From Paenibacillus sabinae T27 (GTDB lineage: Bacteria; Bacillota; Bacilli; Paenibacillales; Paenibacillaceae): DNA of 64,000 nucleotides. Below are positions 20,672-62,560 of the stretch, piece by piece. The stretch spans positions 4,426,001 to 4,490,000 of the forward strand of contig NZ_CP004078.1 of NCBI RefSeq assembly GCF_000612505.1, given 5' to 3'. Made by a program: the position numbers and the translations under genes. Under the pieces are notes generated by a model that saw only the letters and a list, made by a program, of their open reading frames with translations, ran no database searches and was not told the DNA's origin. How positions within the stretch are numbered: position 1 is the stretch's first letter; the number at the start of each line of letters is the position of its first letter.

Positions 20672-20751
20672 TGATGCCGGTGAGAGGACTCGAACCTCCA
20701 CGGTTTCCCTCACGATTTTGAGTCGCGCGCGTCTGCCAGTTCCGCCACACC
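20672..20751. repeat. attL: 80-bp direct repeat, displaced 3' part of tRNA-Leu
   Basis: Identical over 80 bp to 62481-62560. It contains the tRNA-Leu(CAA) sequence from the discriminator to the beginning of the D arm, but beyond the repeat the 5' acceptor strand reads GGGAGGTG instead of GCCGGTG, leaving mismatches with CACCGGC. It is therefore a non-functional fragment that could be mis-called as a second tRNA-Leu. Confidence 0.9.
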
Positions 20752-31707: not shown

Positions 31708-31760
31708 CGATCCGCCTCCCTCCTATACATAGTCGCGCCAGGTTACGCGCATTTCGGACA

Positions 31761-31788
31761 AGAAAAGAGACGCTACTTCTAGCGTCCC
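31761..31788 (-). terminator. Terminator after the tape-measure gene
   Basis: GACGCTA/TAGCGTC stem followed leftward by TCTTTTCTT, 12 bp past the tape-measure stop. Downstream tail genes would then need read-through or another promoter. Confidence 0.75.
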
Positions 31789-31800
31789 TACCCGTGCTCA

Positions 31801-39292: not shown

Positions 39293-40381
39293 TTACGACA
39301 GACCTTTCAGACGGCCGTGCGCTTTCTCTTGTTCAAGTTGCAGTGTGTACTCGCCGACGATTTGGCCCGTCTCATAATCCCCCTTCACGCCAAGATAGGT
39401 ATGCGTGAAGTCACGCGTTACCAGCGGGCGAATGGCAATGCGGTTAGCGTCTACAAGGAAAAGCTCGTCAGGGGAGAGATTTTGGTTAAGGGCAACCTCA
39501 AACTGTCCAAAATCAGTTACGACGAAGTCTACGACTTGTCCGCGAGTGTTTTCACCGCGAGTCAAGGTTACTTTGTTCGCATCCGCAGCGGAAAGAGCGA
39601 CCTTTTGCTTAGCTGGAACCATAATTTTGTAGTTCCCACCGTTCGCAAAACCGCCGGCGTCGTATACTGTCTGTGCCAAGGTATTGATCGCAGAAAGTGT
39701 AAGCGCTCCGCCTACGTTGGTAACGTTGGTTGTGATGAATTGGCGTATACCTTTCATTTGACGAACTTGGCCGGATTCGTAAGAAACGCCGTTAATCGCG
39801 GCCTTTTCCACCTGCAGCGCAAGCTCAAGCAGTTTCTTCTGTTTCTCGTACTCGTACAGATTGCTAATTCCGTACTGAGCGACGGCTTTTGCGGTTCCGG
39901 AAAGCTCAACCGAATCCGTGAAGATTTGCGTAAGGTTGGACTTACGTACGCGCGCTTTGTAACGGGCTGCGCGAGCGTCCGCGCCTTCTACGCCTTCGTC
40001 GAACAGGAACTCGACTTTAGCGCCAGACGATACCGCAGCGGCCGTAGTCGAAGCGTATGCCCGCGTAACAGTCAGCGTTTTAGTACCGGGGTCGATTGCG
40101 GAAACGTACAGCAGCTCGTCGCCGATCTTGATTACGGAACCGACACGGAAAGGAGTTACGTCCGCTACCACGACGGAAGTAGCGTCAATCAGCGCGGATG
40201 CGGTAGTTACCGTTTCGTCCGGAAACATTTCATCTTCGAACCAAATATGCTCTACCGCTGTAACTGGATCAGCAAAACCAAGCATGTTCAGCAACGGAGT
40301 TTGATGCGGATTGAGTAGCAGAAGTTCATCTACCACTGATTCCTTTTTTCCGACCATAGATGCGTCATAAATTTTAGCCAT
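39293..40381 (-). CDS. Major capsid protein (SU10/DUF5309-type)
   Basis: 362 aa. Pattern of DUF5309/SU10 capsids: KESVVDELLLLNPHQTPLLN, VEHIWFEDEMFPDETV, RKSNLTQIFTDSVELSGTA, and C-terminal REDVFTHTYLG-like RDFTHTYLGVKGDYETGQ. A beta insertion (about 75-125) includes GDELLYVSAIDPGTKTLTVT. HK97 fold inferred. GGGGGAAAT precedes ATG; scaffold gene lies 96 bp upstream. Confidence 0.86.
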   Translation of the reverse strand: MAKIYDASMVGKKESVVDELLLLNPHQTPLLNMLGFADPVTAVEHIWFEDEMFPDETVTTASALIDATSVVVADVTPFRVGSVIKIGDELLYVSAIDPGTKTLTVTRAYASTTAAAVSSGAKVEFLFDEGVEGADARAARYKARVRKSNLTQIFTDSVELSGTAKAVAQYGISNLYEYEKQKKLLELALQVEKAAINGVSYESGQVRQMKGIRQFITTNVTNVGGALTLSAINTLAQTVYDAGGFANGGNYKIMVPAKQKVALSAADANKVTLTRGENTRGQVVDFVVTDFGQFEVALNQNLSPDELFLVDANRIAIRPLVTRDFTHTYLGVKGDYETGQIVGEYTLQLEQEKAHGRLKGLS

Positions 40382-44882: not shown

Positions 44883-46505
44883 TTAGGCCCATGCGGGCTT
44901 ATTGCGGACTCTCCGTCTCGCCTTGGCTACGTTCTCGACAGAAAGCTGCAGAGCATCACAGGAATCCACATAATCACCGTGCGGATATTGCGCGAGTTGA
45001 TCGATAAGCATCGTATGTCCGGCGTTGAGGATTAGCGTTTTGTTATGAAAAAGAGGCTCTAACGATTCAATCCGCTCCTCCTTCGAGGATTTATAGGATT
45101 TGATATCGTTGAGCCTCGTTCTGTAAATGCCTTCGGTCCTCATGCGCTCCTGTAGTTGCCGGTAAAATTCGTGCTGCGCGTTTATCGTTTCTACCGAGAA
45201 TACCGCGTGCTTAAACTCGCGCATCTTCTCGATGATTAAGTCGATATATTTATGCGGCTGCTCTTTCGACGCGTATTCGTCCAAGACAAAAATATGTCCG
45301 GTCTTTTCGTGACGGCCGACCGTAATCACCGCGTTGTAACAGGACCGCGCGTTCTTCCCTTGCGCAATATCCCACGCACCTGATACCGTTAAGTCTTCGA
45401 CCGGTATGCGTAGGTCTTCGTACCGGATATATCGGTGTCCACCTTCGTATTCAAACCGATAGTAGCCGTACGTGTCCGGGAAGAAGAATTGCTCGTCTTC
45501 GCTGAACGCCAGGTTTCGAAATTCGCTATTATAAGCGCGCGTACCCATGTTAACCTTTTCGTGCATGAGCGCACGATAGGTCCAGCGCCAAGGCCACGCC
45601 AGTTCGACGCCAGCTTCGAGCGCTTCCCTGTTCTCCGCGTAGAATGTGTCGGCCTCCGCCATGTCTTCGCAGCGTGCGTATATTTCGCAATACTGCTCCC
45701 AAAGTTGCGGATTTTCCGGCTCCGATACGACCGCACCGTGAAATGACGATTCAAAGTCGCGGCGCTTGAGAACGTGATTAAGCAGGCCGGTCGCGCTAAC
45801 CATCGTTCCGACGAGTATAATTGCGGTCGCTTTCGTTCCGATCGGAACCACTACGGAGTTGAACCAGTGAATCAACTTCTCGCGCGCTTCCTTCGTGCTT
45901 TCGTTATTTTGCGAGGATGGATCGTCGACGATAACGAGGTCTGGACGGTAGGAGCCGTGACGCTTACCGCGTAGTTGTTTGCCAGAAGATGACGCCTCAA
46001 CGAGCGTACCGGATAACGTAATGAACGCCTCTTCGTTGTCCTTCTCGTTTTGATTATTGCGCTCGTGGAGGAGCGGCCCAAAGTCAGCGCGCAGTTTTTC
46101 GTTAAATTTAAGCTGCTTGTTTATCCAGCCAATCAGCTTTTTCGATAGCGTGTCCGTTTCCGATATGACAAGTATGTATCGCCGCTTTCGGTAAGCGGCC
46201 TGATGCAGCGGAAACGAGTTCGAGAACATGCCGGACTTAGAATGACCCCGCGCCGCCGCGATTGCTAAACGCGCATTACGCTCAACGTGATCGACGTGAT
46301 TACATAGCGCAAAGAACTCCGCGTGTATCGGTGCTATTTCATCGAGCGAATCGTGGGGCGTTCCGTCCTCCCCGTTGCGTACGATGTTGTCCTCGTTATC
46401 CGGGTTTCCGGAGTCCGATAGGTACTCGTACGTAAAGTAAGCGACGTCATCCTCTGCGCGGTCAATCCGTTTCAACCGCTTTAATTCCGCGATATCCGCC
46501 CGCAA
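44883..46505 (-). CDS. Terminase large subunit
   Basis: 540 aa from TTG 46505. ATPase: AIAAARGHSKSGMFS (Walker A-like) and DLVIVDDPS (Walker B); nuclease: SGAWDIAQGKNARS and VFSVETINAQHEF. Packages DNA through the portal. The coding frame extends about 44 residues upstream (WVNDEWLDKLARAERIKLVS...), up to a strong AAGGAGGTG at 46646-46653 whose best-spaced in-frame codon is ATC at 46637; the true N-terminus is probably there. Confidence 0.9.
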   Translation of the reverse strand: MRADIAELKRLKRIDRAEDDVAYFTYEYLSDSGNPDNEDNIVRNGEDGTPHDSLDEIAPIHAEFFALCNHVDHVERNARLAIAAARGHSKSGMFSNSFPLHQAAYRKRRYILVISETDTLSKKLIGWINKQLKFNEKLRADFGPLLHERNNQNEKDNEEAFITLSGTLVEASSSGKQLRGKRHGSYRPDLVIVDDPSSQNNESTKEAREKLIHWFNSVVVPIGTKATAIILVGTMVSATGLLNHVLKRRDFESSFHGAVVSEPENPQLWEQYCEIYARCEDMAEADTFYAENREALEAGVELAWPWRWTYRALMHEKVNMGTRAYNSEFRNLAFSEDEQFFFPDTYGYYRFEYEGGHRYIRYEDLRIPVEDLTVSGAWDIAQGKNARSCYNAVITVGRHEKTGHIFVLDEYASKEQPHKYIDLIIEKMREFKHAVFSVETINAQHEFYRQLQERMRTEGIYRTRLNDIKSYKSSKEERIESLEPLFHNKTLILNAGHTMLIDQLAQYPHGDYVDSCDALQLSVENVAKARRRVRNKPAWA

Positions 46506-46655
46506 TGACTCTTCGTGATACGTTGTTGCGCGACCGGTCCGTACGAGTTCGCGCAGTTTCTTAGCGCGTTCCGATACGAGTTTGATGCGTTCGGCACGCG
46601 CCAGTTTATCGAGCCACTCATCGTTTACCCATGCGATGCGAACGCACCTCCTTCG

Positions 46656-47096
46656 TTAATTTTCCGGTGTCTCTCCGAGCAATTCGTCAAGCTCGTCAAG
46701 TTCAGCCGCCAGTTCCTCGTTTGACCGAGCGCTACCGGCCTCTTTCGTTTCGACTGCGACCTGCTGCGTAATAAGGCCGAATCTGCGGAAGAAAAGGTCA
46801 ATCGCCTTGATCGACGGTTGCTGTCCGTCAATAGCGCGCATGAGTTGGCGGTATACTTTCGCGCGATCCGCCGCTAAAAAGTCATCCGCTAGATAGTTGA
46901 CGTAATCGATAAAGGCACGTTTCTGCGTCCGCCATTGGTGCAGCGTCTTGCGGGATACGCCGATTTCAGCCGCGATCTCATCGAATGTTAAGCGGTCTTC
47001 TTCGGCGGAAAATTCGCGCTCTACACACAGTAGCGCGGCCTTGATTTGGCGGCCATCTAAGCGCGATTCGAGAGCGGCCTTTTTCTTATCGGACAT
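46656..47096 (-). CDS. Terminase small subunit
   Basis: 146 aa. N-terminal helix-turn-helix (TFDEIAAEIGVSRKTLHQWRTQKR) as in phBC6A51/HTH_Tnp-type TerS, followed by oligomerisation helices and an acidic C-terminus (LAAELDELDELLGETPEN). Recognises the packaging site. GGAGGAAC precedes ATG; a large inverted repeat lies just upstream (47129-47191). Confidence 0.85.
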   Translation of the reverse strand: MSDKKKAALESRLDGRQIKAALLCVEREFSAEEDRLTFDEIAAEIGVSRKTLHQWRTQKRAFIDYVNYLADDFLAADRAKVYRQLMRAIDGQQPSIKAIDLFFRRFGLITQQVAVETKEAGSARSNEELAAELDELDELLGETPEN

Positions 47097-47492: not shown

Positions 47493-48044
47493 GTGAAGAT
47501 CGGATATGCTCGGGTATCAACCGCTGACCAATCGTTAGATATGCAAATAGATGCGTTGACCGCTGCCGGATGTGAACGCGTCTATACGGAGAAAGCTTCA
47601 GGCTCAAAGGATGATCGCGTAGAACTAGCGCGTGTAATGGACTTACTGCGAGCCGGCGACATGATTGTCGTATATAAACTCGACCGACTAGCGCGCTCAA
47701 CCGTTAAGCTAATATCAACGCTAGATGAGATACAAAGGCGCGGTGCCGAGTTCGTCAGCCTCAACGATAATATCGATACATCTACCGCTGTAGGACGCGC
47801 GTTCTTCGGTATGCTCGCTGTATTCGCCGAGTTCGAGCGCAACGTAATCGTTGAACGTACTCGCGCCGGCCTAGCCGCCAGTAGAGCACGCGGCCGTAAC
47901 GGTGGACGCCCGAAGACGGACCGCAAGAAGGTAGCGCAAGCCGTTAAGCTGTACGATACTCAAGCGCACACAGTAACGGAGATAACGGAAATGACCGGCG
48001 TGACAAAGGCTACGTTATATAGAGCGTTGAAGGAGCGTCAATAA
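47493..48044 (+). CDS. Serine recombinase (resolvase/invertase)
   Basis: 183 aa, GTG start with GGAGG 10 bp upstream. Catalytic Ser9 in YARVSTADQ, the YKLDRLARS and ARGRNGGRPK motifs, and a C-terminal helix-turn-helix (TEITEMTGVTKATLYRAL). Typical of DNA invertases and resolvases. The only rightward gene in the central region. No invertible tail segment with flanking inverted sites was recognised, so it may act in multimer resolution or on sites near 48181-48273. Confidence 0.88.
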   Translation: MKIGYARVSTADQSLDMQIDALTAAGCERVYTEKASGSKDDRVELARVMDLLRAGDMIVVYKLDRLARSTVKLISTLDEIQRRGAEFVSLNDNIDTSTAVGRAFFGMLAVFAEFERNVIVERTRAGLAASRARGRNGGRPKTDRKKVAQAVKLYDTQAHTVTEITEMTGVTKATLYRALKERQ

Positions 48045-48540: not shown

Positions 48541-48727
48541 CTCCGTTTCTTTATCTGCGCTATTCTTTGTCTTTGCCTACATGAGATACTTCCTTGAATA
48601 ATCCTCATGTATATTGCTAACAAAGGTTTCCTCTTAACTTCCTTGGATTCGGGCTTTGCCCTCATCCCCTCAGTCACTTACATTCCTTCGGAATATCTTT
48701 TATGCGCACTAAATTACTATTACTTAC
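48541..48727. other. Non-coding stretch beside origin-like module A
   Basis: About 190 bp without a gene; leftward purine-rich with several AAGGAA words and a small GGGCAAAGCCC hairpin. Confidence 0.45.
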
Positions 48728-48785
48728 CGGCCGCTAGGAATGAAGGAGCGTAAGCGACTGAATGACGACGCGTAATGTTTTGTTT
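48728..48785. repeat. 58-bp conserved element, copy A
   Basis: Matches 53763-53820 in 57 of 58 positions. It begins CGGCCGCTAGGAATG and ends GTAATGTTTTGTTT. It stands 42 bp from the iterons of module A. Not coding: an 11-codon frame in this copy is broken in the other. Confidence 0.9.
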
Positions 48786-48827
48786 GTTCTTACATGTTCG
48801 TTATTATTACGTTAGTTCTTATTACCG

Positions 48828-48899
48828 TCACTCTCCGGTGATTTAGGTAATTCACTCTACAGTGCATTAGGTAAATCACTCTCCGGTGAATGACCGTAT
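48828..48899. repeat. Iteron-like repeats, module A (3 x 24 bp)
   Basis: Three direct repeats with exact 24-bp period, each starting TCACTCT followed by CCGGTGA or ACAGTGC. They overlap the 3' end of the winged-helix gene at 48857 (the stop lies in the middle unit). An AT-rich segment (48786-48827) separates them from the 58-bp element. Confidence 0.85.
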
Positions 48900-49315
48900 A
48901 GAACGTCTAAATTGGCGCGAATCTCCTCGTCAGTCAGAGCGCTATAATACTGCGGATAATACAGCTTGTCGCGCTTGTTCGACGTATAGTCCATCGCAGA
49001 CTTAACGAGCCCGACCGCTTCCAGCACGTCACACAACGGTTTAATCCGGTTACGCCCGATCCCTGTCTCGTCAGCAATACGCTGTACGGACGGGAACGCG
49101 CTCATGTACCGGTCATTGTCCGGCTGTCCGTTAACCATCGCTAGCAGGTACGTATACAGCGCCGCCATGTGAACGTTGCCTTTATCGTACTCGCGCGCGA
49201 TCGGTATTAACCGGCGGAACAGGTCGTGCGGGACCGGAGCGTAATGCCCACGGTCCAGACACGTTGATTTTTTATGCGCGGCTTCTTCGGCCAACGCGCG
49301 GAATTGTTTACTCAT
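48857..49315 (-). CDS. Winged-helix initiator-like protein A
   Basis: 152 aa from ATG 49315. Contains a winged-helix unit (SVQRIADETGIGRNRIKPLCDVLEAVGLV) shared with the gene at 53937 (IDRNRIKFLADVLETNGII). N-terminal YAPVPHDLFRRLIPIARE and LYTYLLAMVNG resemble replication-protein N-termini. The gene ends inside its own 24-bp repeats, so the last residues SPESDLPNAL are iteron-encoded. A replication initiator or origin-binding regulator is inferred from the layout. Confidence 0.72.
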   Translation of the reverse strand: MSKQFRALAEEAAHKKSTCLDRGHYAPVPHDLFRRLIPIAREYDKGNVHMAALYTYLLAMVNGQPDNDRYMSAFPSVQRIADETGIGRNRIKPLCDVLEAVGLVKSAMDYTSNKRDKLYYPQYYSALTDEEIRANLDVLYGHSPESDLPNAL

Positions 49316-49342
49316 ACTCCACACTCCACGTAAATTTATCCG

Positions 49343-49516
49343 TTACTTATTTGCGTCATATTCGTCAAGCGTTCGTCTAACCGCGTCGTCCTTTGCGAAC
49401 AGCCAGAAGCGTCCGCCAGTCTTCTCGTTTAGCCCTACGCAGATATATCGGTGTCCGGCCGCTCGTAGAAAGTGGAACATAGCGGGCGAATAGCAGTAAA
49501 GATAAGCGTTTCCCAT
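49343..49516 (-). CDS. Small DUF5659-like protein
   Basis: 57 aa, ATG 49516 with GGGAGGG 8 bp upstream. Sequence begins MGNAYLYCYSPAMFHFLRA and includes GHRYICVGLNEKTGGRFWLF, similar to small phage/plasmid proteins of the DUF5659 type. Function unknown. Confidence 0.6.
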   Translation of the reverse strand: MGNAYLYCYSPAMFHFLRAAGHRYICVGLNEKTGGRFWLFAKDDAVRRTLDEYDANK

Positions 49517-49530
49517 ACGTAAGCCCTCCC

Positions 49531-49704
49531 TTAGTTAAACTCGACAACAACGCTGCTCATTTCGGAATCAAGCGTCTGCTCAAAGTCGTAGTTAAAATCG
49601 TCAGCGTCGGCATACTCCTCGAACGTCTGGAACGAATCTTTCCCCTCTTCGCACAGCAAAAATTCGTTTCCTTTAGCGTCAATCACCTTGATAGCATATT
49701 TCAT
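49531..49704 (-). CDS. Small acidic hypothetical protein
   Basis: 57 aa, acidic (EEGKDSFQTFEEYADADDF), ATG 49704 preceded by GGAGAG. Upstream lies a series of hairpins and a promoter-like pair, so it may be regulated at RNA level. Not recognised. Confidence 0.58.
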   Translation of the reverse strand: MKYAIKVIDAKGNEFLLCEEGKDSFQTFEEYADADDFNYDFEQTLDSEMSSVVVEFN

Positions 49705-49774
49705 CTTCGCACTCTCCTCTCAAATATTCGTAAGGGCAACCGGAGTCTACCCGCGTCGTTCGTAAGCCTCACAA

Positions 49775-49860
49775 GTTCGGGCGCAAAGCCCAAACGGGTT
49801 GTGCCCGGATTTTACCGGGCCTCGCCTATATAGCTTTGAGATTGCATAAAATGCAACCTC
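49775..49860 (-). ncRNA. Structured leader: three consecutive hairpins
   Basis: Leftward the RNA would fold GAGGTTGCAT-TTT-ATGCAATCTC (49838-49860), GCCCGG-CCGGGC (49803-49820) and GTTTGGGC-GCCCGAAC (49775-49795) in series, upstream of the 57-aa gene at 49704. A possible promoter (TTGCAT, 17 bp, CTATAT) overlaps the first. No known riboswitch recognised. Confidence 0.45.
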
Positions 49861-49878
49861 ATCCGTTCCCTACAACGC

Positions 49879-49915
49879 AAAAAAGACGCCGTCTCCCGGA
49901 AGGAGCCTAGCGTCA
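49879..49915 (-). terminator. Terminator downstream of the ligase operon
   Basis: GACGC(N)GGCTCC-TTCC-GGGAG(N)GCGTC stem followed leftward by TTTTTT. Confidence 0.8.
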
Positions 49916-49961
49916 TCACAGCGAATATTTAACGTAATACAACCGCAGAAAGGACGGTTTT

Positions 49962-50132
49962 ATCGAACTATTTGCGGCAGCCCTAGCGCAAGCCCGCGTC
50001 ACTGTGCGCGAGAAGGACGGGCGTAACGAAGCCCCGGAGCGTAGCGGAGTGATTGAGAAGTATACGCCAAATTGCGTTAAAGTGGCCGGCACGTACTATA
50101 TGCGCAGCGAGTACGAATTTAAAACGATGTAA
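49962..50132 (+). CDS. Possible small gene with non-canonical start
   Basis: A 57-codon frame in the otherwise empty stretch 49916-50205: AGAAAGGACGG, 4 bp, then ATC; product I-ELFAAALAQARVTVREKDGRN... ending EFKTM. Composition looks coding, and the same frame continues past the stop as KTFELWKRAFPNAIPYEYKG to 50215, suggesting a longer or decayed gene. No ATG, GTG or TTG fits. Confidence 0.35.
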   Translation: MELFAAALAQARVTVREKDGRNEAPERSGVIEKYTPNCVKVAGTYYMRSEYEFKTM

Positions 50133-50205
50133 AGGAATCTTTTTAAGACGTTCGAACTGTGGAAACGCGCCTTCCCTAACGCAATCCCATACGAATATAA
50201 AGGGC

Positions 50206-51075
50206 TTAAACGATAAACTCCGTAAACACCGGACTACGCAGCATCCCCGCTTTTGTCCAATTACGTATCTTAACACGCGCCCGTATGCGCGGCTCCAAGC
50301 GCACAAACTCACGGTCCTCGCCGGTAATTAGCGGCTTCACAACGCCATAGAACGCCCGCTTATGCGTAGGCGTCGCGCCAAACTCGATTATGCCGGCGGG
50401 CCGTAACTTTCCGCGATCGTCCGCAACTGACGCCAGCCATCCGAAATCACCCTTACGGTAGCCCGTTATGAATACGTCGGCGTACGTCCAGTTAATGACC
50501 TTTTGCCACGCGGAGTGCCGGCGGCTGACATATACGCTGTCCTTCCGCTTGGCGACCACGCCTTCCATGTTGCGCGCCTGCATCTGTGCAAACAGCGCCT
50601 CGCCCGCTCCCTCAACGTATGGGATCACGCCGAAATTAGCGCTAGGCAACGATAGCCTAGCGAGTATGGCCTTCCGTTCCAGAAGCGGTAAGTTACGCAC
50701 GTCTTCGCCTTTATAGCGCAGAATATCGAATACAACGAACGTGACCGGCAATTCCTTCGTGAGCTGCCGTATCTTATCCGCCCGTTTCGCCTGGAAACGC
50801 GACATTACGGATTCGAAGTCAACCGCGCCGGTCAGCGGATCTACGCACGCGATTTCACCGTCAAGTAGTACATCATACGGGAATAGTGTGCCGGTAGAGC
50901 CGTTTATTTCCGGATATTGGCGTGTACATTCGTTGTTATGGCGTGTATATAGGCGCACGTTGCCGGTATCTTGCGAGTATATTAAGCGGTGTCCGTCAAT
51001 CTTCGGCTCGAAAATATAGCGCGAGTCTGAGAACGGGGCGACCGCTGTTTCGAGTAACATCGGGGATATGAACAT
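50206..51075 (-). CDS. ATP-dependent DNA ligase
   Basis: 289 aa. Nucleotidyltransferase motif I EPKIDGHR with adenylated Lys25, motif III FVVFDILRYKG, motif IV MEGVVAKRKDS, motif V ADVFITGYRKG and a C-terminal OB fold (PAGIIEFGA ... RARVKIRNWTKAGMLR). Resembles the ligase part of bacterial LigD-type enzymes. Seals nicks during phage replication or recombination. GGAGGCGG precedes ATG. Confidence 0.9.
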   Translation of the reverse strand: MFISPMLLETAVAPFSDSRYIFEPKIDGHRLIYSQDTGNVRLYTRHNNECTRQYPEINGSTGTLFPYDVLLDGEIACVDPLTGAVDFESVMSRFQAKRADKIRQLTKELPVTFVVFDILRYKGEDVRNLPLLERKAILARLSLPSANFGVIPYVEGAGEALFAQMQARNMEGVVAKRKDSVYVSRRHSAWQKVINWTYADVFITGYRKGDFGWLASVADDRGKLRPAGIIEFGATPTHKRAFYGVVKPLITGEDREFVRLEPRIRARVKIRNWTKAGMLRSPVFTEFIV

Positions 51076-51144
51076 AAAACCGCCTCCACTCCGATTATAG
51101 CGCGTTGGTGCACCGGGGAGAGACGGTAAGTTATGGGACTTCGA

Positions 51145-51330
51145 TCACTCCGGTCTTAAATGCCACGCCTCCACATACGCAAGCCGCCCGCTCTCGTCCG
51201 CTATCACCGTTACCTTACGTCCACCCTTCGCGCTGATCCGATACCCTACGCCATCCTCACGCTTTCCTGCGCTAATCTCCCGTAGTAAGTCCGCAGCCGT
51301 CGGCGTCCACTCCCGGTTAGTCAGGCGCAT
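51145..51330 (-). CDS. Small basic hypothetical protein
   Basis: 61 aa; N-terminal helix (TPTAADLLREISAGKRE), then a short beta part KVTVIADESGRLAYVEAWHL. Weak ribosome site. Unknown function, early-region gene. Confidence 0.55.
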   Translation of the reverse strand: MRLTNREWTPTAADLLREISAGKREDGVGYRISAKGGRKVTVIADESGRLAYVEAWHLRPE

Positions 51331-51390
51331 TCTTCCGAATTACATAGTAGGGGTATCCGCGAATCCGCAGAGACCCCTCGTTTTAACAGG

Positions 51391-51657
51391 CTACTTCTTG
51401 CTCTCTTCTGCGCACACTAGTAGTGCCTCCGCAATGTTGGACAACAGGTCAGCCGGCACGACTACGCCATCAGTTCGCCCGTCCCTAGATGCTAGGTAGG
51501 CCAAGAACTCATCCCCTAACCCTTTATCGTGAATGAAACCGACGATACACTCCCCAAGCACGAAATAGTCATCCTGCGCAGCATACGCTTGTGCCACCGC
51601 TGCCTCACGCGCTTCGTGTTCCTGAATGGTCATCGTCTCTGTAATCGTTTTGTTCAT
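51391..51657 (-). CDS. Small acidic hypothetical protein
   Basis: 88 aa, Glu/Ala-rich helical protein (TIQEHEAREAAVAQAYAAQD). AAAGGAGCG precedes ATG. Not recognised. Confidence 0.62.
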   Translation of the reverse strand: MNKTITETMTIQEHEAREAAVAQAYAAQDDYFVLGECIVGFIHDKGLGDEFLAYLASRDGRTDGVVVPADLLSNIAEALLVCAEESKK

Positions 51658-51731
51658 TAAAAATCGCTCCTTTAGGTTTGTTATCTATGTTAACGGCTCT
51701 CGCCGGCAGATGTTATTCAGCGCTAACCGAG

Positions 51732-52538
51732 CTACGCCGCGCGGCGGCTTTCCAACCGCTCAAATATCGCGTCATGGCTAAGCCCCAGCTTGTCTATTGC
51801 GTGGGCAATCGCTCCCTCCGTAAAGATCGCGCCTTTGGTTCTGCGTAGGGCGATCGCAGTATCGGTCGTATCCGCGAGTGCTTCTTTCTGTACGAGGATT
51901 CCCTGACGACGTTGGAAGTACAGCGAATCACTGTAGAAATACTGCAGGTATTCGCGCAGTTTACCCTCGCTCGCAAATTGCCGTAAGGCCGCTGCATCGC
52001 GGGTGTCGACGCCCAGCAACGCTAAGAACTGGCGGAATTTCGGTAGTTCGCGCGAGAAACGACGCATTAGTGATATACCGGCCGCCGCCTCCGCCTGTTC
52101 GCTGAGCGGCGTGCCTGCGATAAAGTCGCATTGAATGCTCTCTACGAGGGCAGCGTCACGTATTCCGAGGTAAAGGTCGTTATCCGTTTTACGCCGGGCC
52201 TTCACTTTGGCTGTAAGCGTTCGGAAATTTCTTAACGCGTGCCCCGTGACGGCTTCCGCTCTTTTGTTAGCGGTAACTGTCGTGAGTTTATGTCCACGCC
52301 CTTCGCTCGTTCCGTAGAGCTGCGTATACAGATTAGCTGAAAATACCGGTGCGAATCGCGTATGCTCCCCTCTGTCAAAGAGACCGTGTTTAACGAAGTG
52401 ATCAGATACGTAAGGGGAGTTTAGCACCAAATCGGAAGCCGTAGACTCTGCTACTAAGGCGAAGCTCGTCTTAGTTTTGTCCTCGACTCTCTTTTCAAAA
52501 TCCCTAAAGATTCCCTCAGCCATTCTCTCGTTCTTCAT
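51732..52538 (-). CDS. Hypothetical protein coupled to ParB-like gene
   Basis: 268 aa, mostly helical, DNA-binding-like basic centre (TANKRAEAVTGHALRNFRTLTAKVKARRK). Its first 23 bp overlap the end of the ParB-like gene, implying coupled translation and joint function. Not a ParA: no Walker motifs. Function unknown; possibly a partner in DNA segregation or replication control. Confidence 0.7.
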   Translation of the reverse strand: MKNERMAEGIFRDFEKRVEDKTKTSFALVAESTASDLVLNSPYVSDHFVKHGLFDRGEHTRFAPVFSANLYTQLYGTSEGRGHKLTTVTANKRAEAVTGHALRNFRTLTAKVKARRKTDNDLYLGIRDAALVESIQCDFIAGTPLSEQAEAAAGISLMRRFSRELPKFRQFLALLGVDTRDAAALRQFASEGKLREYLQYFYSDSLYFQRRQGILVQKEALADTTDTAIALRRTKGAIFTEGAIAHAIDKLGLSHDAIFERLESRRAA

Positions 52539-53586
52539 TTTGTTTTCTCCCTTCGGTTATGGTTTTTGTAATTGCGGCGGTACCTTCGTCTGAACACGTA
52601 CCCTCTACCAAATACGCCAGTTGCTCGTACAGAGCGCGCACAGTCTCGTCGTTATCAAACTTGCTCACGATTAGCGAACAGCCGAGCATTATGCGTTTAA
52701 TACGTGTGACGTATTGTTCCGTAGTCTCATCGTCGACGCCGTCGTAGAATGCCTCGAAACTTACGCACATGCCCCGGGCAAACGCCAGTACGTCGTTGTC
52801 CAGGTGGTATCGAACGAGGTTGCTCGGGCTGAGCGGTGACTCGCCGGGAATAGGCTGCAGCGTGCCTAGCGCTTCTATTTCCCGTCCAATCTTTCCGAGC
52901 TTCTCGTGCTCGGGCGACCTCGGGGCTTTGGGAGGGGGCTTTGGTTCGTCAGCCGGTTGCTCCGACTGCTTCCGTTTGCGTAACTCCGTCTCCGCGCGAT
53001 TGATCGTGATTTCTCCGGACTTGATGCGCTCCGCCAAATCGGGAGCCTCGCGTAATACCGCCTGCGCCTTGTAGACGTTTCGCGCCGAGGTGCCTGACAA
53101 CTGCGCAATGTGCTCCGCCACCTCGCTCGTACGCTCGTCGCTATCTCCCGAACTTCCCCGCAATACTGCAGACAAGTCGGTCCGCTCCCCTTGGCGGTTT
53201 CTTGCCTCTTCCCTGAGTCTTTGGAGAAGTTCCCCAAATTCAAGATTAATCATTACCTTCTGCCCGGTAAGTAACGACCTCCTCTCTGTGGCTGACTGAC
53301 GCATCCGATCTAACGCATTGTCTTCCGTTATGTCCCACGTAATCACGGGAAGCGTGGGCAGTTCGTTTTCTTTCGCGGCGCGCAGACGGTGCCTTCCGTC
53401 AAAAACGCGCCCGTCCGGCAACGCGAATACCGGGTCTGTGACTGCGCCACGGCTTCGTACACTTTCGTTGAAATCCGCCCATTCCTCCGGAGACATTTCC
53501 GGGATGCGCCAGGCTTCCGGATGTTCAACAAGTGATGACGGCGGTACATAGTGAATCTCGGTCGGCCGTTCTAGTACGTCAAGCAA
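52516..53586 (-). CDS. ParB/Spo0J-like nuclease-domain protein
   Basis: 356 aa from TTG 53586 (AGGAGG upstream). N-terminal ParB domain (about 15-95): VPPSSLVEHPEAWRIP, GAVTDPVFALPDGRVFDGRHRL; then a helix-turn-helix region (about 150-190, VAEHIAQLSGTSARNVYKAQ) and a Pro-rich linker with an acidic C-terminal half. May bind DNA for segregation or regulate early genes. Sits next to origin-like module B (53763-53936). Confidence 0.85.
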   Translation of the reverse strand: MLDVLERPTEIHYVPPSSLVEHPEAWRIPEMSPEEWADFNESVRSRGAVTDPVFALPDGRVFDGRHRLRAAKENELPTLPVITWDITEDNALDRMRQSATERRSLLTGQKVMINLEFGELLQRLREEARNRQGERTDLSAVLRGSSGDSDERTSEVAEHIAQLSGTSARNVYKAQAVLREAPDLAERIKSGEITINRAETELRKRKQSEQPADEPKPPPKAPRSPEHEKLGKIGREIEALGTLQPIPGESPLSPSNLVRYHLDNDVLAFARGMCVSFEAFYDGVDDETTEQYVTRIKRIMLGCSLIVSKFDNDETVRALYEQLAYLVEGTCSDEGTAAITKTITEGRKQNEERENG

Positions 53587-53762
53587 CTGGTAATCCTCCT
53601 TTTTGTTTAATGATCTATGTTAACGGGATGCAGAACAGCGCATTTCCCGATTATTAACCTTTGGATATTACTCGCGTTCTCGTTCTGCTTCGTCACTTCG
53701 TTCCTCATCGTCCGCTTACGCGTCCGAACTATTTTACGCGCTCAAAATGTATTAGGTATTGT
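53587..53762. other. Non-coding stretch beside origin-like module B
   Basis: About 176 bp without a gene between the ParB-like start and the 58-bp element; pyrimidine-rich with CGTTCNTCNTCG-like words. Confidence 0.45.
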
Positions 53763-53820
53763 CGGCCGCTAGGAATGAAGGAGCGTTAGCGACTGAATGA
53801 CGACGCGTAATGTTTTGTTT
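53763..53820. repeat. 58-bp conserved element, copy B
   Basis: Second copy of 48728-48785 with one difference (T for A at the 28th base, which breaks the only small frame). 41 bp separate it from the module B iterons, nearly the same as in module A. Confidence 0.9.
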
Positions 53821-53861
53821 CTCTCTTACACCTTTCTCTTTTACAACCTTTCTATCTTTAC

Positions 53862-53936
53862 AGTCCGTCTAGGACATACTAAGCTTCGTATGTCCTGCGC
53901 ATACTACGGTAAGTCCGTCCTGGACATACTACCGTG
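53862..53936. repeat. Iteron-like repeats, module B (3 x 25 bp)
   Basis: Three units of 25 bp; outer units read AGTCCGTC(T/C)(A/T)GGACATACTA, the middle one is more diverged with an inverted GTATGTCC/GCATAC core. They end exactly at the stop codon of the winged-helix gene at 53937, and differ completely from module A repeats. Confidence 0.8.
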
Positions 53937-54437
53937 CTAGGCCGCCTTCTTCCGGTAGACTCCGAAGTCCGGCGTAACAATCGCGCCGTCCTCGTCGACA
54001 ATGTATCCGTCATCCGTTATTCGCGGACAGTACGACGGAAAATACCATTTGAAGCGCCGCAGCCTTTCGTAATGCGTAGCCGTCCGGATAATCCCGTTAG
54101 TTTCAAGCACGTCCGCGAGAAACTTAATCCGGTTGCGATCGATACGTAGCGTACTCGTCAGCATGTCGTACGCGATGAAGCACGCCCCAAAACGGTCATT
54201 TACCGTTCCATCAGCCCGAAGGTAGTTTCCGTCGATATACGACTGCAACGTGAAGTAGAACGCGTATAGGTCGCGTATTTCAGGCTTACGGCGTGCGTCT
54301 GCATATACGTCGTCGTAAACTTCTCGGATGATGCGCGGGAATACCTTTCGGACGAGTTCGCGGTTATAGACTTCAAATCCGCCGGGTCCGTCGAGCAGCG
54401 TTTGTTTATCGTTAGGAAGCGGCCCTCGTCCGTTCAT
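53937..54437 (-). CDS. Winged-helix initiator-like protein B
   Basis: 166 aa from ATG 54437 (AAAGGAG 9 bp upstream). Same architecture as protein A: LYAFYFTLQSYIDG, then winged helix TSTLRIDRNRIKFLADVLETNGIIRTATHYERLRRFKWYFPSY. It has a C-terminal extension ending GVYRKKAA. Its stop abuts three 25-bp iterons. Its first 17 residues recur at 54620-54799. Origin binding inferred. Confidence 0.72.
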   Translation of the reverse strand: MNGRGPLPNDKQTLLDGPGGFEVYNRELVRKVFPRIIREVYDDVYADARRKPEIRDLYAFYFTLQSYIDGNYLRADGTVNDRFGACFIAYDMLTSTLRIDRNRIKFLADVLETNGIIRTATHYERLRRFKWYFPSYCPRITDDGYIVDEDGAIVTPDFGVYRKKAA

Positions 54438-57320: not shown

Positions 57321-57564
57321 GCGTAGAATCACTGTGAAATCAGCGACTATACTCCTCACCCTTCTGCTAATACTCCGGAAGGCTGTACGCGGCTAATTCA
57401 ACGGAAAATCAACGGTAATATAACGACGAAAAGCGCCTGACTCTCGTTAAATTGTTAATACATATCCGAAACTATTTCGACACTACCAATTGTATTTTTA
57501 TAGAAATAAAATGTTGTATAATAGAAGTAATAGCAGTGAATCCAATATTATAGGAGCGCAGAAA

Positions 57565-58788
57565 ATGCATAAGAAAAGATTCGTTGATCCTTTTTTCCCA
57601 AATAGGCCTGTTGACGATCCCGATAGATTTTCTGGAAGAGAAATCCAAGTCGATGAAGTCGCCGATTCACTTTTTCAGATTGCGAACAGCAACCCAAAAC
57701 ACACCATTATCACAGGCGATCGGGGAATGGGAAAAAGTTCACTCCTATTACAGACGCGGATGCTTGCGACAGGTGACAACCGCCTCGTTAATAAGCTTGA
57801 TATCGATATTGGTTATGATGCTTTTAATTACATTATCGCGTGGCACGACGCTAACTATGATCAAACACCTGAGCATATCGTATCTGGACTACTGAGAGAC
57901 CTCGAAGGAAATATTTCAAAGCTATTCGGTAAGTTCAATCTTGAACTTGATTTATATGGTCTCAAAGTAGGATCATCTGTTCAGAAGGAAAAGACTGTGG
58001 CAGACCTAGTCAATGACTTTTGCGACATTATAAAGAAAAGCTATAAGGCAGTAATAGACGGCAAAAAACAGGGGATAATACTTTTCATTGATGAACTGGA
58101 TAGGGTACGCCCAGACTCTGGGATAGCGACATTCTTTAAGCTTGCTACTGAGAAACTTAGTAGGGAAGGAATAAAAAAGGTTGGGTTCTTTTGTGCAGGG
58201 ATTACGGGAGCTATCCAAAAACTCGAGGTAGACCACGGATCTGTTTTTAGAACGTTTAGAGACGTTCCAATCCCAAGACTAACTAAATCTGAAACCTCTG
58301 ATATTCTTTCCACAGGGTTCTGCGGTGTTGGATTTACATTTGACAGGATTGTGCTCGATGCTGTATTTGAACTCTCATCGGGGTTTCCAGAACCGGTTCA
58401 CATTCTTGGGAGCGAAATGCTGTCTGAAGCTAGTTCGAAGCAAATCACCATAGAGACTTTTAATAAGGCTAAAAAACGAGTTGTAACTGACGTGAAAAAG
58501 AATAAACTAAAATCTCTGCTCGAAAAGGCAGGCTATGGTAAATATCAAAAAATACTTGAAGCGATGGCAAAGTATGAAGGGCCTTATGTTCCATTAGATT
58601 TCATATCTCGACACATAGGCTACGATCAAAAACAATTTAGCACAAATATATCTAATTTGATCGAAAGAGAAACGATTACTCGTGTTGACAAAGGCGTTTA
58701 CGCATTTGTTGACCCACTTCTTAAAGAATACATCAGAAATTTTGGGATTATTAATATTAAAGACAATGTCGATAACGACGAGCAGTAG
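57565..58788 (+). CDS. AAA ATPase (ORC/CDC6-like), AT-rich cargo
   Basis: 407 aa from ATG 57565 (AGGAGCG upstream). Walker A GDRGMGKSS and Walker B GIILFIDELDR define an AAA/STAND-like ATPase with ORC-type order: N-terminal FSGREIQVDEVADSL, ATPase core, then C-terminal winged helix (ISRHIGYDQKQFSTNISNLIE). More AT-rich than its neighbours and placed between repressor and integrases, a typical slot for lysogeny-expressed accessory or defence genes. A TATAAT box lies at 57517-57522. Function beyond ATP use is unknown. Confidence 0.85.
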   Translation: MHKKRFVDPFFPNRPVDDPDRFSGREIQVDEVADSLFQIANSNPKHTIITGDRGMGKSSLLLQTRMLATGDNRLVNKLDIDIGYDAFNYIIAWHDANYDQTPEHIVSGLLRDLEGNISKLFGKFNLELDLYGLKVGSSVQKEKTVADLVNDFCDIIKKSYKAVIDGKKQGIILFIDELDRVRPDSGIATFFKLATEKLSREGIKKVGFFCAGITGAIQKLEVDHGSVFRTFRDVPIPRLTKSETSDILSTGFCGVGFTFDRIVLDAVFELSSGFPEPVHILGSEMLSEASSKQITIETFNKAKKRVVTDVKKNKLKSLLEKAGYGKYQKILEAMAKYEGPYVPLDFISRHIGYDQKQFSTNISNLIERETITRVDKGVYAFVDPLLKEYIRNFGIINIKDNVDNDEQ

Positions 58789-58872: not shown

Positions 58873-59916
58873 TTATTGCTTACGTTTGGTCTTGCGGGGC
58901 TTTTTGAGCGGACTCAGGACGTCATTTAACGGTGAAAACGCGTTATGCTGCGCCTTCAATGCCCGGTCAGACGGCGTTGTATAGCGCATCGTCGATCGCG
59001 GGTCCGTATGGCCCAATATCGCGGCCAAATGGCGAAGTGAACCGCCCTTCTCCATGAATATTGTCGCGGATGTATGGCGGAACAGGTGCAAAAACACGTT
59101 GGCGTCAATGCCGGCCTTTTTCGCGTGCTGTTTGATTCGGTCGCGCAGCCGGTCATCCCGCAAAGGCTCGCCGTAGTTGGACAAAAATAGATAATCCGAT
59201 TCAAAGTCCGCGTTCTCTTTGATAAGCTCTTTTAGCAATCGCAGCGTGTAGTCGGAAACCGGGACCGACCGCCCCCTCCGCGTCTTAACGATCTCCGCGT
59301 CAAAGTGAACCATCCCGATCTTGAAGTCGATACTCGACTCGCGGAGCGACAATAACTCTCCAACGCGCGCGAACGAATCAATAAGGACGTGCATCGCAGT
59401 ATAGTCCCGAAAGCCGGCATAAGTCCGCTTATCTGGCGCATCAAGTAATCGCTGCATCTCATCTACGGTGAGTATCCGTATCTTCTTTTCAGGCTCCGGA
59501 ACTTTCCCGATTCTCGCGGCCGGATTATAGTCGATAACGCCCTCCTCATGCAGAAAGCGGAACATCGCTTTAATCGCCTTCATCTTCGTGTTGACGGTGA
59601 CTGGAGACAGCCCCAGCGTCATATTCTCTTCCGACTTGTGTGGGTGGCCTTCCCACTTCCGTTGTCCGTGCAGCATCCAGTTCATGTACGCCCGCAACGC
59701 GTTCGGCGTTACGGCCGTAAATGTCCGCTCAATTCCTACACTATCCATATAATTGCAGAAGTAACGGTAATATTCCGTATAAGATTCAATAGTACGCTTA
59801 GACCGACCTTCGGAAGCTTTGGCATTAATAAAAATTGCAAATAAATCGTCTAGCTGCTTATCCGCTCCCTTCGTGTCCCGATTAAATTTGTAACGTTTAC
59901 CTATTCGTCTGTCCAC
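58873..59916 (-). CDS. Tyrosine recombinase 1
   Basis: 347 aa from GTG 59916 (GGGAGGAG 7 bp upstream). SAM-like core-binding domain (about 20-125), catalytic domain with Arg in ARVGELLSLRE, HLFRHTSA (HxxR), LGHTDPRSTMRYT (His, nucleophile Tyr). Ends with a Lys/Arg-rich tail after FSPLNDVLSPLKK. Own transcription unit: the terminator at 59973-60010 ends the preceding operon. One of three tyrosine recombinases at this end. Confidence 0.9.
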   Translation of the reverse strand: MDRRIGKRYKFNRDTKGADKQLDDLFAIFINAKASEGRSKRTIESYTEYYRYFCNYMDSVGIERTFTAVTPNALRAYMNWMLHGQRKWEGHPHKSEENMTLGLSPVTVNTKMKAIKAMFRFLHEEGVIDYNPAARIGKVPEPEKKIRILTVDEMQRLLDAPDKRTYAGFRDYTAMHVLIDSFARVGELLSLRESSIDFKIGMVHFDAEIVKTRRGRSVPVSDYTLRLLKELIKENADFESDYLFLSNYGEPLRDDRLRDRIKQHAKKAGIDANVFLHLFRHTSATIFMEKGGSLRHLAAILGHTDPRSTMRYTTPSDRALKAQHNAFSPLNDVLSPLKKPRKTKRKQ

Positions 59917-59972
59917 GTTGTCTCCTCCCTTACATACCAACGTTGATTGTACGGGAGATAAAGGGATTACGC

Positions 59973-60010
59973 AAAAATAGCGCCCGATCCGCGAAGGACC
60001 GAGCGCTATT
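59973..60010 (-). terminator. Terminator after integrase 2
   Basis: AATAGCGC/GCGCTATT stem followed leftward by TTTTTG, 27 bp past the integrase 2 stop. Confidence 0.82.
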
Positions 60011-60036
60011 GTTATAGTTTTGTGCTGCTATTTACG

Positions 60037-60984
60037 TTAATTAAAGATCGAACTGACTGGTGAAAATTTATCGTGTTGCTTTGAGATATCGGTCTGGAAC
60101 ATCTCTGTGTAGAGTTGGGCCATATGTAGCGATTTATGACCCATGATCCGCATTAGGCTTACTACGTCTCCAGAATTGAGTACGTAATTTCGCGCGAATG
60201 TATAACGTAACGTATGACACGACACGCGGACGCCCTTGATCCCCGCCAATTTTCCATAATCCGATATCTCCTCCTGTACGGTCCGGCGTTTTAGCGGCTG
60301 CCCGTCTACGTTTAAGAAGAATACGTCATTTTCGGAATCACCGCGCAGTTCCAGGTACTCTCGTAAATGAACGGACAGCACGTCACTAAACGGAATTAAA
60401 CGCTCTCGGCGCCATTTTCCGAAGACCTGGATTACGCGCTCCTGCCAAAATACATCGTTTACGCGGAAAGTCAGCGCTTCTTCTAGGCGCATACCCGTAT
60501 CCAACAACAGCAGTATGAAAACGTAATTACGGTAGCCTGCGGGCGTTGATCGGTTTGGGGCCTCAAGGAGAGCCATAACTTGCTCGCGGCTCAACGTACG
60601 CAATATCCGTTTCTCCTCGACGAGCTTATCGATTGCCTCCATTGGATTCTCTGATAGGTACCCTGAACTCAATAAGAAATTAAAGAATGCGCGCAAACTT
60701 CGGATATACTTATTGATTGTTGGTGCGCTGTTCCCCTCGTCATGCCTCGTTTGTATAAACTCTTGGATGTCTTCTAGGATTACGTCATTAACTTTTCCAA
60801 TATCATTCTCATCCATAAAAGCGTTAAACTTTGCTAGAGCTTGCTCATAGGATGCTACCGTGTTTCCGGTCAGGTTTTTGAGTTTGCGTGATCTAATAAA
60901 CATATTGGTAGCGGACTGCATGTCTAGCTTTTCTTTCGCTCCCCGCGTTTCAAGTATCATTTTTCTTTTTTCTTTGTAATCCAT
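60037..60984 (-). CDS. Tyrosine recombinase 2
   Basis: 315 aa from ATG 60984 (AAGGAAG upstream; ATG 60960 overlapping the TGA of the 50-aa gene is an alternative). Catalytic Arg in GMRLEEALTF, HTLRYTFA (HxxR), MGHKSLHMAQLYTE (His, Tyr). C-terminal HDKFSPVSSIFN resembles the end of the other two. Last gene of the operon int3, 71-aa, 50-aa, int2. Confidence 0.9.
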   Translation of the reverse strand: MDYKEKRKMILETRGAKEKLDMQSATNMFIRSRKLKNLTGNTVASYEQALAKFNAFMDENDIGKVNDVILEDIQEFIQTRHDEGNSAPTINKYIRSLRAFFNFLLSSGYLSENPMEAIDKLVEEKRILRTLSREQVMALLEAPNRSTPAGYRNYVFILLLLDTGMRLEEALTFRVNDVFWQERVIQVFGKWRRERLIPFSDVLSVHLREYLELRGDSENDVFFLNVDGQPLKRRTVQEEISDYGKLAGIKGVRVSCHTLRYTFARNYVLNSGDVVSLMRIMGHKSLHMAQLYTEMFQTDISKQHDKFSPVSSIFN

Positions 60985-61109
60985 TCTTGTAACACTTCCT
61001 TAATATCAGTTTCGTCTGCCAATTTGACCGCTATCGCCCGACCGTATACGAAAATGATACGCGTTTCGCCCGGCATTAACGCGGTCAGTTCGCGTAATAT
61101 AACGTTCAA
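60957..61109 (-). CDS. Small coupled protein between integrases
   Basis: 50 aa from TTG 61109; AGGGAGGGGCGG upstream. Its TTGA start overlaps the TGA of the 71-aa gene, and it overlaps the integrase 2 N-terminus. Reads LNVILRELTALMPGETRIIF with a Lys-rich end. Possibly a recombination directionality factor; inference from position only. Confidence 0.5.
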   Translation of the reverse strand: MNVILRELTALMPGETRIIFVYGRAIAVKLADETDIKEVLQEWITKKKEK

Positions 61110-61321
61110 TACCGCCCCTCCCTTCGCGCCTTTCTAAGCTCCCGCACCTTTTCCAGATTCAGTAGCTTAAACGTTCGGTTACGGTAACTCATTAGACGGG
61201 ACCGCCGCATATAATTAGCGTCATAATTACGGTCAGCACGGAGTCGGCCGCCGTACTGTTCAAGTTTTCCGGTATAGTAGCAAAGGCGGTCTGTTAGACG
61301 CTTACCATTTCGACTTTTCAT
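61106..61321 (-). CDS. Small basic protein between integrases
   Basis: 71 aa, very basic (ANYMRRSRLMSYRNRTFKLL, ELRKARREGRY), starting 2 bp after the integrase 3 stop. Size and charge suit an excisionase-like DNA-binding protein, though no helix-turn-helix is clear. Confidence 0.55.
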   Translation of the reverse strand: MKSRNGKRLTDRLCYYTGKLEQYGGRLRADRNYDANYMRRSRLMSYRNRTFKLLNLEKVRELRKARREGRY

Positions 61322-61323
61322 AC

Positions 61324-62286
61324 TTAGTACATCCGCTCAAGCGGACTGAATTTCCGATGCTCGTCACGCACCTCATTACTAAATAGGTTCACGTACGTAC
61401 GCACCTGGTCTAACGTAGCATGGCCGAGCACAGCCTGCAGCGCGAACACATCAGCGCCGTTCTGAACACTCATTTTAGCGAACGTATGGCGCAGGGTATG
61501 TGGTGAGCACCGGACTCCTTTAATGCCCGCTCTACGCCCGTAGAACGCGACTTGTTCCTGCACCTGTCGTACGGTCAGCGGAGTGTTATCGATCGTGACG
61601 AAAAGGTTGTCGTGCTCAAGCGTTCCGCGTAGATTTAGATACCTCGCAAGTTCTTTACGCATGGTCGCCTGAAACGGTACGAGGCGCTGCTTATAGCCCT
61701 TTCCGTCGATCTTGATTACGCCGTCACGCCAGTTAATATCGGTCGTCTTGATTTCGGTAAGCTCGCGGACGCGGACGCCGGTTTCCGCAAATAGCATAAT
61801 CATCGTACGGTCCCGAACGCCGACGAACGTCTTCTGGTCCGGCTGCGCGATTAATAGGCGAAGCTGGTCCGGGGTAAACGTAGCGACGACGGTCTTCTTC
61901 TGCTTAATTAGCGTCATCTTGCGCATAGGGCTCTGCGTTAAATAACCCTCCCGTACGAGGAAGTTGAACAACGCACGGGCGGCCCGGAGTACGCAATTAA
62001 TAGACGTTTCTTTCTGGCCGTCGTCCATCAAATAGAGGATTACGTTTTCTTTTACGGTCTTCTCCGTTATCTTGCTTGGATCGGTGGGCATACGTTGCTT
62101 GTCGAGGATACGCCGGAACTTACCGAGTTCCTGTCGGTAGAATCCGAGTGTATGCGGGCTAATATTCCGGATTTTACCGTCGCGCAAAAATAAATCCATA
62201 GCGCTATCGAAGTCGTCGACGGCATAAACCGGTTGGGCTTGCGGAGTAACATCTTCGAAGGTGAGCGTGTTCTTTCTACGTGCCAT
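61324..62286 (-). CDS. Tyrosine recombinase 3 (nearest attR)
   Basis: 320 aa, ATG with GGAGAACG upstream. Catalytic Arg in GVRVRELTEIK, HTLRHTFA (HxxR), LGHATLDQVRTYVNL (His, Tyr), C-terminal HRKFSPLERMY. Closest of the three to the rebuilt tRNA-Leu, so the best candidate for the integrase that made this insertion. Its C-terminal HxKFSP motif is shared with recombinases 1 and 2, indicating common descent. Confidence 0.9.
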   Translation of the reverse strand: MARRKNTLTFEDVTPQAQPVYAVDDFDSAMDLFLRDGKIRNISPHTLGFYRQELGKFRRILDKQRMPTDPSKITEKTVKENVILYLMDDGQKETSINCVLRAARALFNFLVREGYLTQSPMRKMTLIKQKKTVVATFTPDQLRLLIAQPDQKTFVGVRDRTMIMLFAETGVRVRELTEIKTTDINWRDGVIKIDGKGYKQRLVPFQATMRKELARYLNLRGTLEHDNLFVTIDNTPLTVRQVQEQVAFYGRRAGIKGVRCSPHTLRHTFAKMSVQNGADVFALQAVLGHATLDQVRTYVNLFSNEVRDEHRKFSPLERMY

Positions 62287-62480: not shown

Positions 62481-62560
62481 TGATGCCGGTGAGAGGACTC
62501 GAACCTCCACGGTTTCCCTCACGATTTTGAGTCGCGCGCGTCTGCCAGTTCCGCCACACC
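62481..62560. repeat. attR: 80-bp direct repeat within tRNA-Leu
   Basis: Identical to 20672-20751; here it joins the host 5' acceptor strand GCC so that the tRNA is intact. Confidence 0.92.

Follow-up and report, generated by a model that had tools for sequence, protein, structure and literature searches.

The 64,000-nt stretch of Paenibacillus sabinae T27 analysed here (NCBI RefSeq GCF_000612505.1, contig NZ_CP004078.1, positions 4,426,001 to 4,490,000; hereafter the window, numbered from its first nucleotide) contains a 41.9 kb prophage that carries on its minus strand two modules of one anatomical plan: a gene for a small winged-helix protein, three direct repeats (iterons), AT-rich DNA and a 58-bp element common to both. 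Each module is best explained as a self-contained replicator, with the shared element as common piece and exchange seam, a reading to which we give a probability of about 0.74. An earlier sequence-only reading had proposed this plan and two origin-like modules whose private iterons feed into one common element; the plan was confirmed in the sequence, and the proposal is largely supported, with further weight from relatives in which the same plan stands at the head of DnaC/DnaB/primase clusters.

Module A consists of the gene for a 152-residue protein (48857–49315), three 24-bp iterons with TCAC-n6-GTGA cores (48819–48888), AT-rich, purine-rich repeats that form a putative unwinding element (48786–48830) and copy A of the 58-bp element (48728–48785). 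The gene of module B encodes 166 residues (53937–54437) and is followed by three 25-bp iterons with cores of the AGTATG...CATACT type (53863–53935), AT-rich, purine-rich repeats that likewise form a putative unwinding element (53821–53862) and copy B (53763–53820). Both iteron sets have a mean identity of 0.74 and are kept in relatives, and the two triplets, whose periods are borne out as first read, are the only three-copy repeats with a period of 20–30 and an identity of at least 0.62 in the window; three dinucleotide shuffles yielded no triple repeat above that 0.62 floor. The iteron sequences of A and B are unrelated, with palindromy at 8–12 of 14 positions in A and 12–14 of 19 in B. Placement of the repeats at the 3’ end of the gene, as originally described, holds for A, where the first iterons overlap the gene end, but not for B, where they start just past the stop codon. 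The spacer, described then as AT- and pyrimidine-rich, is real: the 50-bp stretch at 48777–48826 in A lies at the 98.9th percentile of duplex instability within the window (72% AT, 70% purine on the gene strand), and that at 53811–53860 in B at the 98.7th (70% AT, 82% purine). In relatives the spacer is made of about three ~15-bp repeats; at a strict 15-bp period the window spacers reach an identity of only 0.56 (A) and 0.51 (B). An array of direct repeats adjoins an unstable AT-rich stretch in both modules, as in iteron-type theta replicators.

The two copies of the 58-bp element agree at 57 of 58 positions, as had been reported, and form a direct repeat 5,035 bp apart, with similarity running on to ~88 nt at 86%. 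That the element might be an ordinary dispersed repeat, the possibility raised against the original proposal, is answered by the 5.27-Mb genome, which holds only two good matches (E 2.6e-28 and 1.7e-23), the other five having E values of 0.56–3.7. Imperfect palindromes centred on GCGC, read from the sequence of the same strand, follow copy A (48696–48712) and copy B (53731–53748), and CGCG or GCGC palindromes lie near the same place in many relatives.

A putative initiator-type DNA-binding gene adjoins its own repeats in each module. Protein A matches PHROGs families for replication initiation and DnaD-like proteins (E 1.3e-4 and 3e-4) and scores 19.5 bits against Pfam HTH_36 (PF13730), under the cutoff of 25, which its close homolog P0033 passes with 30.5. 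Protein B itself has no significant match in Pfam, HTH_36 included, or in PHROGs, and was assigned through its homology to A (32% over 135 residues, E 8e-14) and the context of its relatives, which precede DnaC and DnaB genes. The AlphaFold models of A and B (mean predicted local distance difference test scores, pLDDT, of 87.8 and 87.3) have the secondary structure of one winged-helix domain each. Foldseek ranked MarR-like regulators first for A, the structural matches being generic; Foldseek ‘pdb’ by itself would have suggested MarR regulators, a lead that was set aside.

The order of gene, iterons, ~15-bp AT-rich repeats and junction is kept in A and B relatives from IMG/VR and in the B relatives of eight named genomes, including Paenibacillus tundrae, P. 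auburnensis, P. brasilensis, Fontibacillus phaseoli and Bacillus glycinifermentans. Exceptions are L030 with two iterons and L080 and L084 with two AT repeats, and a pattern search found no module in L075. Seven B relatives have ~0.4–0.5 kb between gene and iterons, occupied in plasmid p1 by an annotated HNH endonuclease gene. Matches were present in 5 of 100 genomes drawn from the genus, where both A and B occurred only in the window’s own genome, in 7 of 295 drawn from the family, two of them with both, and in 11 of 398 drawn from the class. Distant DNA searches of 50,697 phage records with both modules gave no relevant match (none in one search, three short matches at chance level in the other), and tblastn with the A-type protein P0033 and with B of the window found no isolated phage; it did find one ‘plasmid’, which proved to be the genome of a phage. 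This plasmid p1 of B. paralicheniformis DY4 (L087/L088, NZ_CP126497.1) is 65 kb long and contains terminase, capsid, tail, polymerase and AimR genes.

Genes that belong to replication proper follow the modules in relatives. B of the P. tundrae prophage is preceded by integrase and endonuclease genes and followed by those for a loader (DnaC-like), a helicase (DnaB-like) and a primase, and loader and helicase also follow B within a few kb in F. phaseoli (L068), L013 and L020. Of the 13 contigs that gave a DnaC-like match, all but G297 carry a module gene (B or one of two further types, C and D) 2.4–7.8 kb upstream on the same strand, and these 12 mark the modules as initiator–origin cassettes; in G307 and G312 this replication-side gene, of type D, is split between frames and B is intact. 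Type C proteins have 115–117 residues, the p1 copy matching a PHROG for replication initiation (1.8e-13) and Pfam DnaD_N (32.5, cutoff 27). Type D proteins have 144–150 residues and exceed the HTH_36 cutoff, with a PHROG match to ‘DNA binding protein’ at 1e-60 and weaker ones to initiator families. Taken by type, A, C and D all match PHROG families that are O-like, DnaD-like or assigned to replication initiation. In the annotated isolated phages KLEB27-1, Tripp, 268TH002 and phi18-2 the replication-side position is taken by D or C, after which come genes for a loader or ‘DNA replication protein’, for a helicase and for a primase, and a search of these four for A or B found neither; a second weak C-like match in 268TH002 (E 2.5e-4) was left out of the counts. 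The D match of G763 ends at residue 108, with other sequence after it.

The second place where modules occur is beside the terminase. A or B lies ~1.5–3 kb upstream of a large-terminase match in 17 of 20 contigs, and the prophage of the window follows this layout, with A upstream of the terminase genes and B upstream of a segment with parB-like and ligase genes. Many Bacillales phages carry one cassette heading the replication genes, and some a second of another type at that distance from the large terminase gene. At the same terminase-side place, G299 (39363–40193) and G304 (30918–31799) encode a protein of 276–293 residues with two winged-helix-like parts, the G304 copy with weak RepL and Phage_rep_O matches. 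As a further module type this tandem protein was rejected, having two repeats only and no shared junction after them.

Modules of different type replace one another at both places. C and D alternate at the replication place, where sequences upstream of the junction are unrelated and those downstream 87–95% identical; A and B alternate at the terminase place, again unrelated upstream and 88–94% identical downstream. By end-free global alignment, for which shuffled sequences give a background of about 0.75, five such exchange comparisons had upstream identities of 0.68–0.76, the level of their shuffles (0.74–0.76), and downstream identities of 0.87–0.95. Controls of the same type gave 0.97 upstream and 0.98 downstream, and 0.86 and 0.82, and A against B within the window gave 0.73 and 0.84. 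Because identity is lost upstream of the junction and kept downstream, the moving unit is the gene with its iterons and AT repeats, and because it breaks at the junction, the seam lies where the shared element begins. A and B replace each other at one locus and are therefore old, separate families joined in one phage rather than products of local duplication. This runs against the sequence-only reading, in which A and B were paralogs that had diverged together with their binding sites within this one phage: each family has its own conserved iterons, and the two were found without each other in 19 of the 20 virus records searched. Co-divergence of initiator and iterons survives inside the A family, where the G768 and G771 modules keep the 24-bp period and the AT-rich repeats but have different iterons, as would be expected of an initiator altered together with its sites. 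In four related Bacillus phages (W01:15082, G306:42151, G307:26822 and G312:26884), where the search for a gene A came up empty, a single A-type iteron stands 140–155 bp downstream of B’s junction, possibly a relic of a replaced A cassette.

The element itself varies between phages. An exact pattern of the 58-bp element gave no relevant match in IMG/VR. After the AT repeats of relatives comes a junction of the form AAAAnATTAnnGC or AAATAATAGCG, and variable sequence follows it. The notion of an element common to the two modules of one phage held up, since junction elements match better within one phage than between phages. In a permutation of six lineages, dereplicated after the groups were known and with the start of the G324/G325 replication-side element set by eye, 2 of 720 permutations at 20 nt, 2 at 60 nt and 1 at 100 nt did as well as the own pairing, which is itself among those counted; G324 and G325 are exceptions to the matching. 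Out of sample, G768 matches itself far above others, G751 is level with its sibling G752, and G752 and G771 show no such self-match; G763, whose fetched stretch holds an insertion, stood outside this test. The 39-nt common word of G768 sits downstream of the junction and is A-rich. A junction hairpin is supported in some relatives and not in the window, where the 58-bp element folds unlike theirs. An alignment of ten relatives of the CCGC...GCGG class, which left out the window copies, L012, Tripp and Bacillus-type elements, has 94.6% of cells paired and 5 cells with two-sided change, neither met in 500 shuffles; pairs with two-sided change (2) were met by 129 and further pair types by 391 of the 500. 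Four of 12 single folds have z ≤ –2.5 and both window copies z of about –0.2, and therefore no hairpin is claimed for the window.

Pairs of modules were counted in two sets. The first comprised 20 contigs found through A or B (17 of the 27 IMG/VR records searched were fetched whole, the rest being 60 kb from P. tundrae, plasmid p1 and a 38.5-kb part of the window), and in this set, biased by its selection towards two modules, 11 of the 15 long or complete contigs have two. The paired modules differ in type in all 11: B with A in the window and P. tundrae, C with B in plasmid p1, D with B in G302, G306, G307 and G312, D with A in G322 and G327, and C with A in G324 and G325. G297, G299, G301, G304 and the five contigs no longer than about 41 kb have a single module. 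The second set was found through D (best 80 of 84 loci), with 43 loci on contigs of 55–100 kb, and among the matches listed a clear A or B accompanies D in 10 of these 43, a count that includes G302, G306, G307, G308 and G312 as already known holders of B. The other 38, which were searched, have one D each among the matches listed, together with a clear A or B in 5, a weak match in 2 and none at 1e-5 in 31. The second module is therefore a recurrent extra and no rule.

As we picture the replicators, the small winged-helix initiator would bind the iteron triplet beside its own gene, the neighbouring purine-rich AT repeats would melt and a helicase, of phage or host origin, would then be loaded. 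The shared element just past the AT repeats would be the constant piece for both modules, most likely serving helicase loading or first priming, and it is also the seam at which initiator, iterons and AT repeats are swapped as a cassette between phages; both modules of the window may fire. The loader, helicase and primase of P. tundrae, used as queries, have no match in the prophage of the window, which would therefore depend on host proteins. More tentatively, and with somewhat less than even odds, a two-replicator plan may span the lineage: a replication-side cassette and an optional terminase-side one of another family, like types not being tolerated together, would both rest on one phage-specific junction that recruits shared helicase-loading machinery, and the late-side origin would start or restart replication for packaging or stall forks.

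A possible but doubtful alternative is that one module works and the other is a passenger from cassette acquisition. The 31 of 38 D contigs (among the matches listed) in which neither A nor B was detectable would fit this, as would the frame-broken D beside an intact B in G307 and G312 and the lone A-type iteron in four phages without gene A. In the window, however, neither reading frame is broken, each module has its iterons and AT repeats and the element copies are one base apart, and pairs recur across several lineages in varied combinations. It is improbable that the modules are transcription switches, in which the winged-helix protein binds the repeats and activates the downstream operon of replication or of terminase and late genes, even though the modules directly precede operons, a TATAAAA-like sequence follows in several of them, Foldseek favours regulators for A, and phages of Gram-positive hosts have their late regulators on the terminase side. 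One and the same B family precedes both replication genes and terminase, and on the replication side B stands where other phages have C, a DnaD_N-domain protein. Sigma-type promoter matches in the region number 6 against 5.9 expected from shuffles, L016 and Tripp have their own sigma-factor genes, and repeated AT-rich units with a junction would be atypical of promoters.

Cos and pac sites occur near terminase genes, and modules often precede terminase; copy A, moreover, lies less than 1 kb from a serine resolvase gene (47493–48044, running opposite to the modules in the interval from module A to the terminase genes), and the two copies form a direct repeat. It is nevertheless very unlikely that the two 58-bp copies serve recombination, resolution or packaging, as targets of this recombinase or as cos or pac, because the element also occurs far from terminase, beside integrase and replication genes in P. 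tundrae, and comes after the AT-rich repeat array where it is found, and because being cut twice per genome would be a costly arrangement for a cos phage. Least credible is a partition site, the iterons acting as a centromere for the ParB-like protein encoded directly after B, although in some phage-plasmids, such as B83, iterons are thought to be centromeres (PMC6669507). The A and B iterons are unrelated and each is tied to its own winged-helix gene, and a DnaC–DnaB cluster lies within a few kb in P. tundrae, F. phaseoli, L013 and L020, an argument behind which there is no systematic search for ParB genes in relatives.

The replicator reading has partial precedents. Full-text literature searches, whose coverage is thin for subscription papers, named no paper on these modules, but two origins in one phage have been described, where the sequence-only reading knew of no description of two complete modules. 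The Bacillus subtilis phage SPP1 has one origin, oriL, within its early gene 38 and a second, oriR, ~13 kb away in its late region, each with direct repeats and an AT-rich unwinding element; its initiator gp38 serves both origins (PMC6316719), and fork stalling has been proposed at oriR. As a phage with two like-organised origins, SPP1 is the closest precedent (the likeness here being one of anatomy), but it uses one initiator for both, whereas the window has two initiator-type genes of different families, unrelated iterons and a separate common junction. Phage lambda has one origin with four iterons, imperfect inverted repeats in the middle of O, beside an AT-rich tract (PMC7466680). Its initiator gene with such iterons next to an AT-rich tract resembles the modules; here, however, three iterons stand at the gene end (A) or past the stop codon (B), there are two modules, and the second domain of lambda O, the one for the helicase loader, has no counterpart in the one-domain models of 152 and 166 residues. 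In phage P1 two replicons serve lytic and plasmid modes, RepA/oriR being the second of them. The other is RepL/oriL (PMC9948254), so that P1 too combines two replicons and two initiators in one phage; the phages considered here are integrated prophages, and their cassettes share a single anatomical layout. Also among the closest known systems are initiator N-terminal domains of solved structure (PDB 4pql, 4pt7 and 5kbj), and the comparison of folds extended to the RepA N-terminal domain of staphylococcal plasmid initiators. The modules offer a natural, sequence-defined set of interchangeable phage replicators, with four initiator families, each with its own iterons, and a seam visible to a few bases, so that experiments could tell the initiator-specific part of an origin from the common one. 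They raise the question of why a phage keeps two origins and how a virus could gain a second start site, and may provide compatible replicons for Paenibacillus and Bacillus.

The prophage (20672–62560) is bounded by an 80-bp direct repeat of a transfer RNA (tRNA) gene (20672–20751 and 62481–62560), consistent with tRNA matches there, and an Rfam search found tRNAs only. Downstream of module A on the minus strand lie the terminase genes (44883–47096): the small subunit (46656–47096) matches HTH_Tnp_1_2 with 94.8 bits, a domain also noted in one annotated small subunit, and the large subunit (44883–46505), without a Pfam match, is 35% identical to a PHROG-identified TerL. The ParB-like gene directly downstream of module B (52516–53586, minus strand) scores 21.2 bits against ParB_N (cutoff 26.3) and matches a ParB-like PHROG at 1.7e-11. 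Between 53000 and 59000 the GC skew, at first negative, becomes weakly positive a little upstream of gene B; the skew was uninformative. A 432-residue AAA ATPase (AAA_16) is encoded at 57490–58788, preceded by a short repressor-like gene, and three consecutive tyrosine recombinase genes, all above the Pfam Phage_integrase cutoff, occupy 58873–62286 beside the tRNA attachment site.

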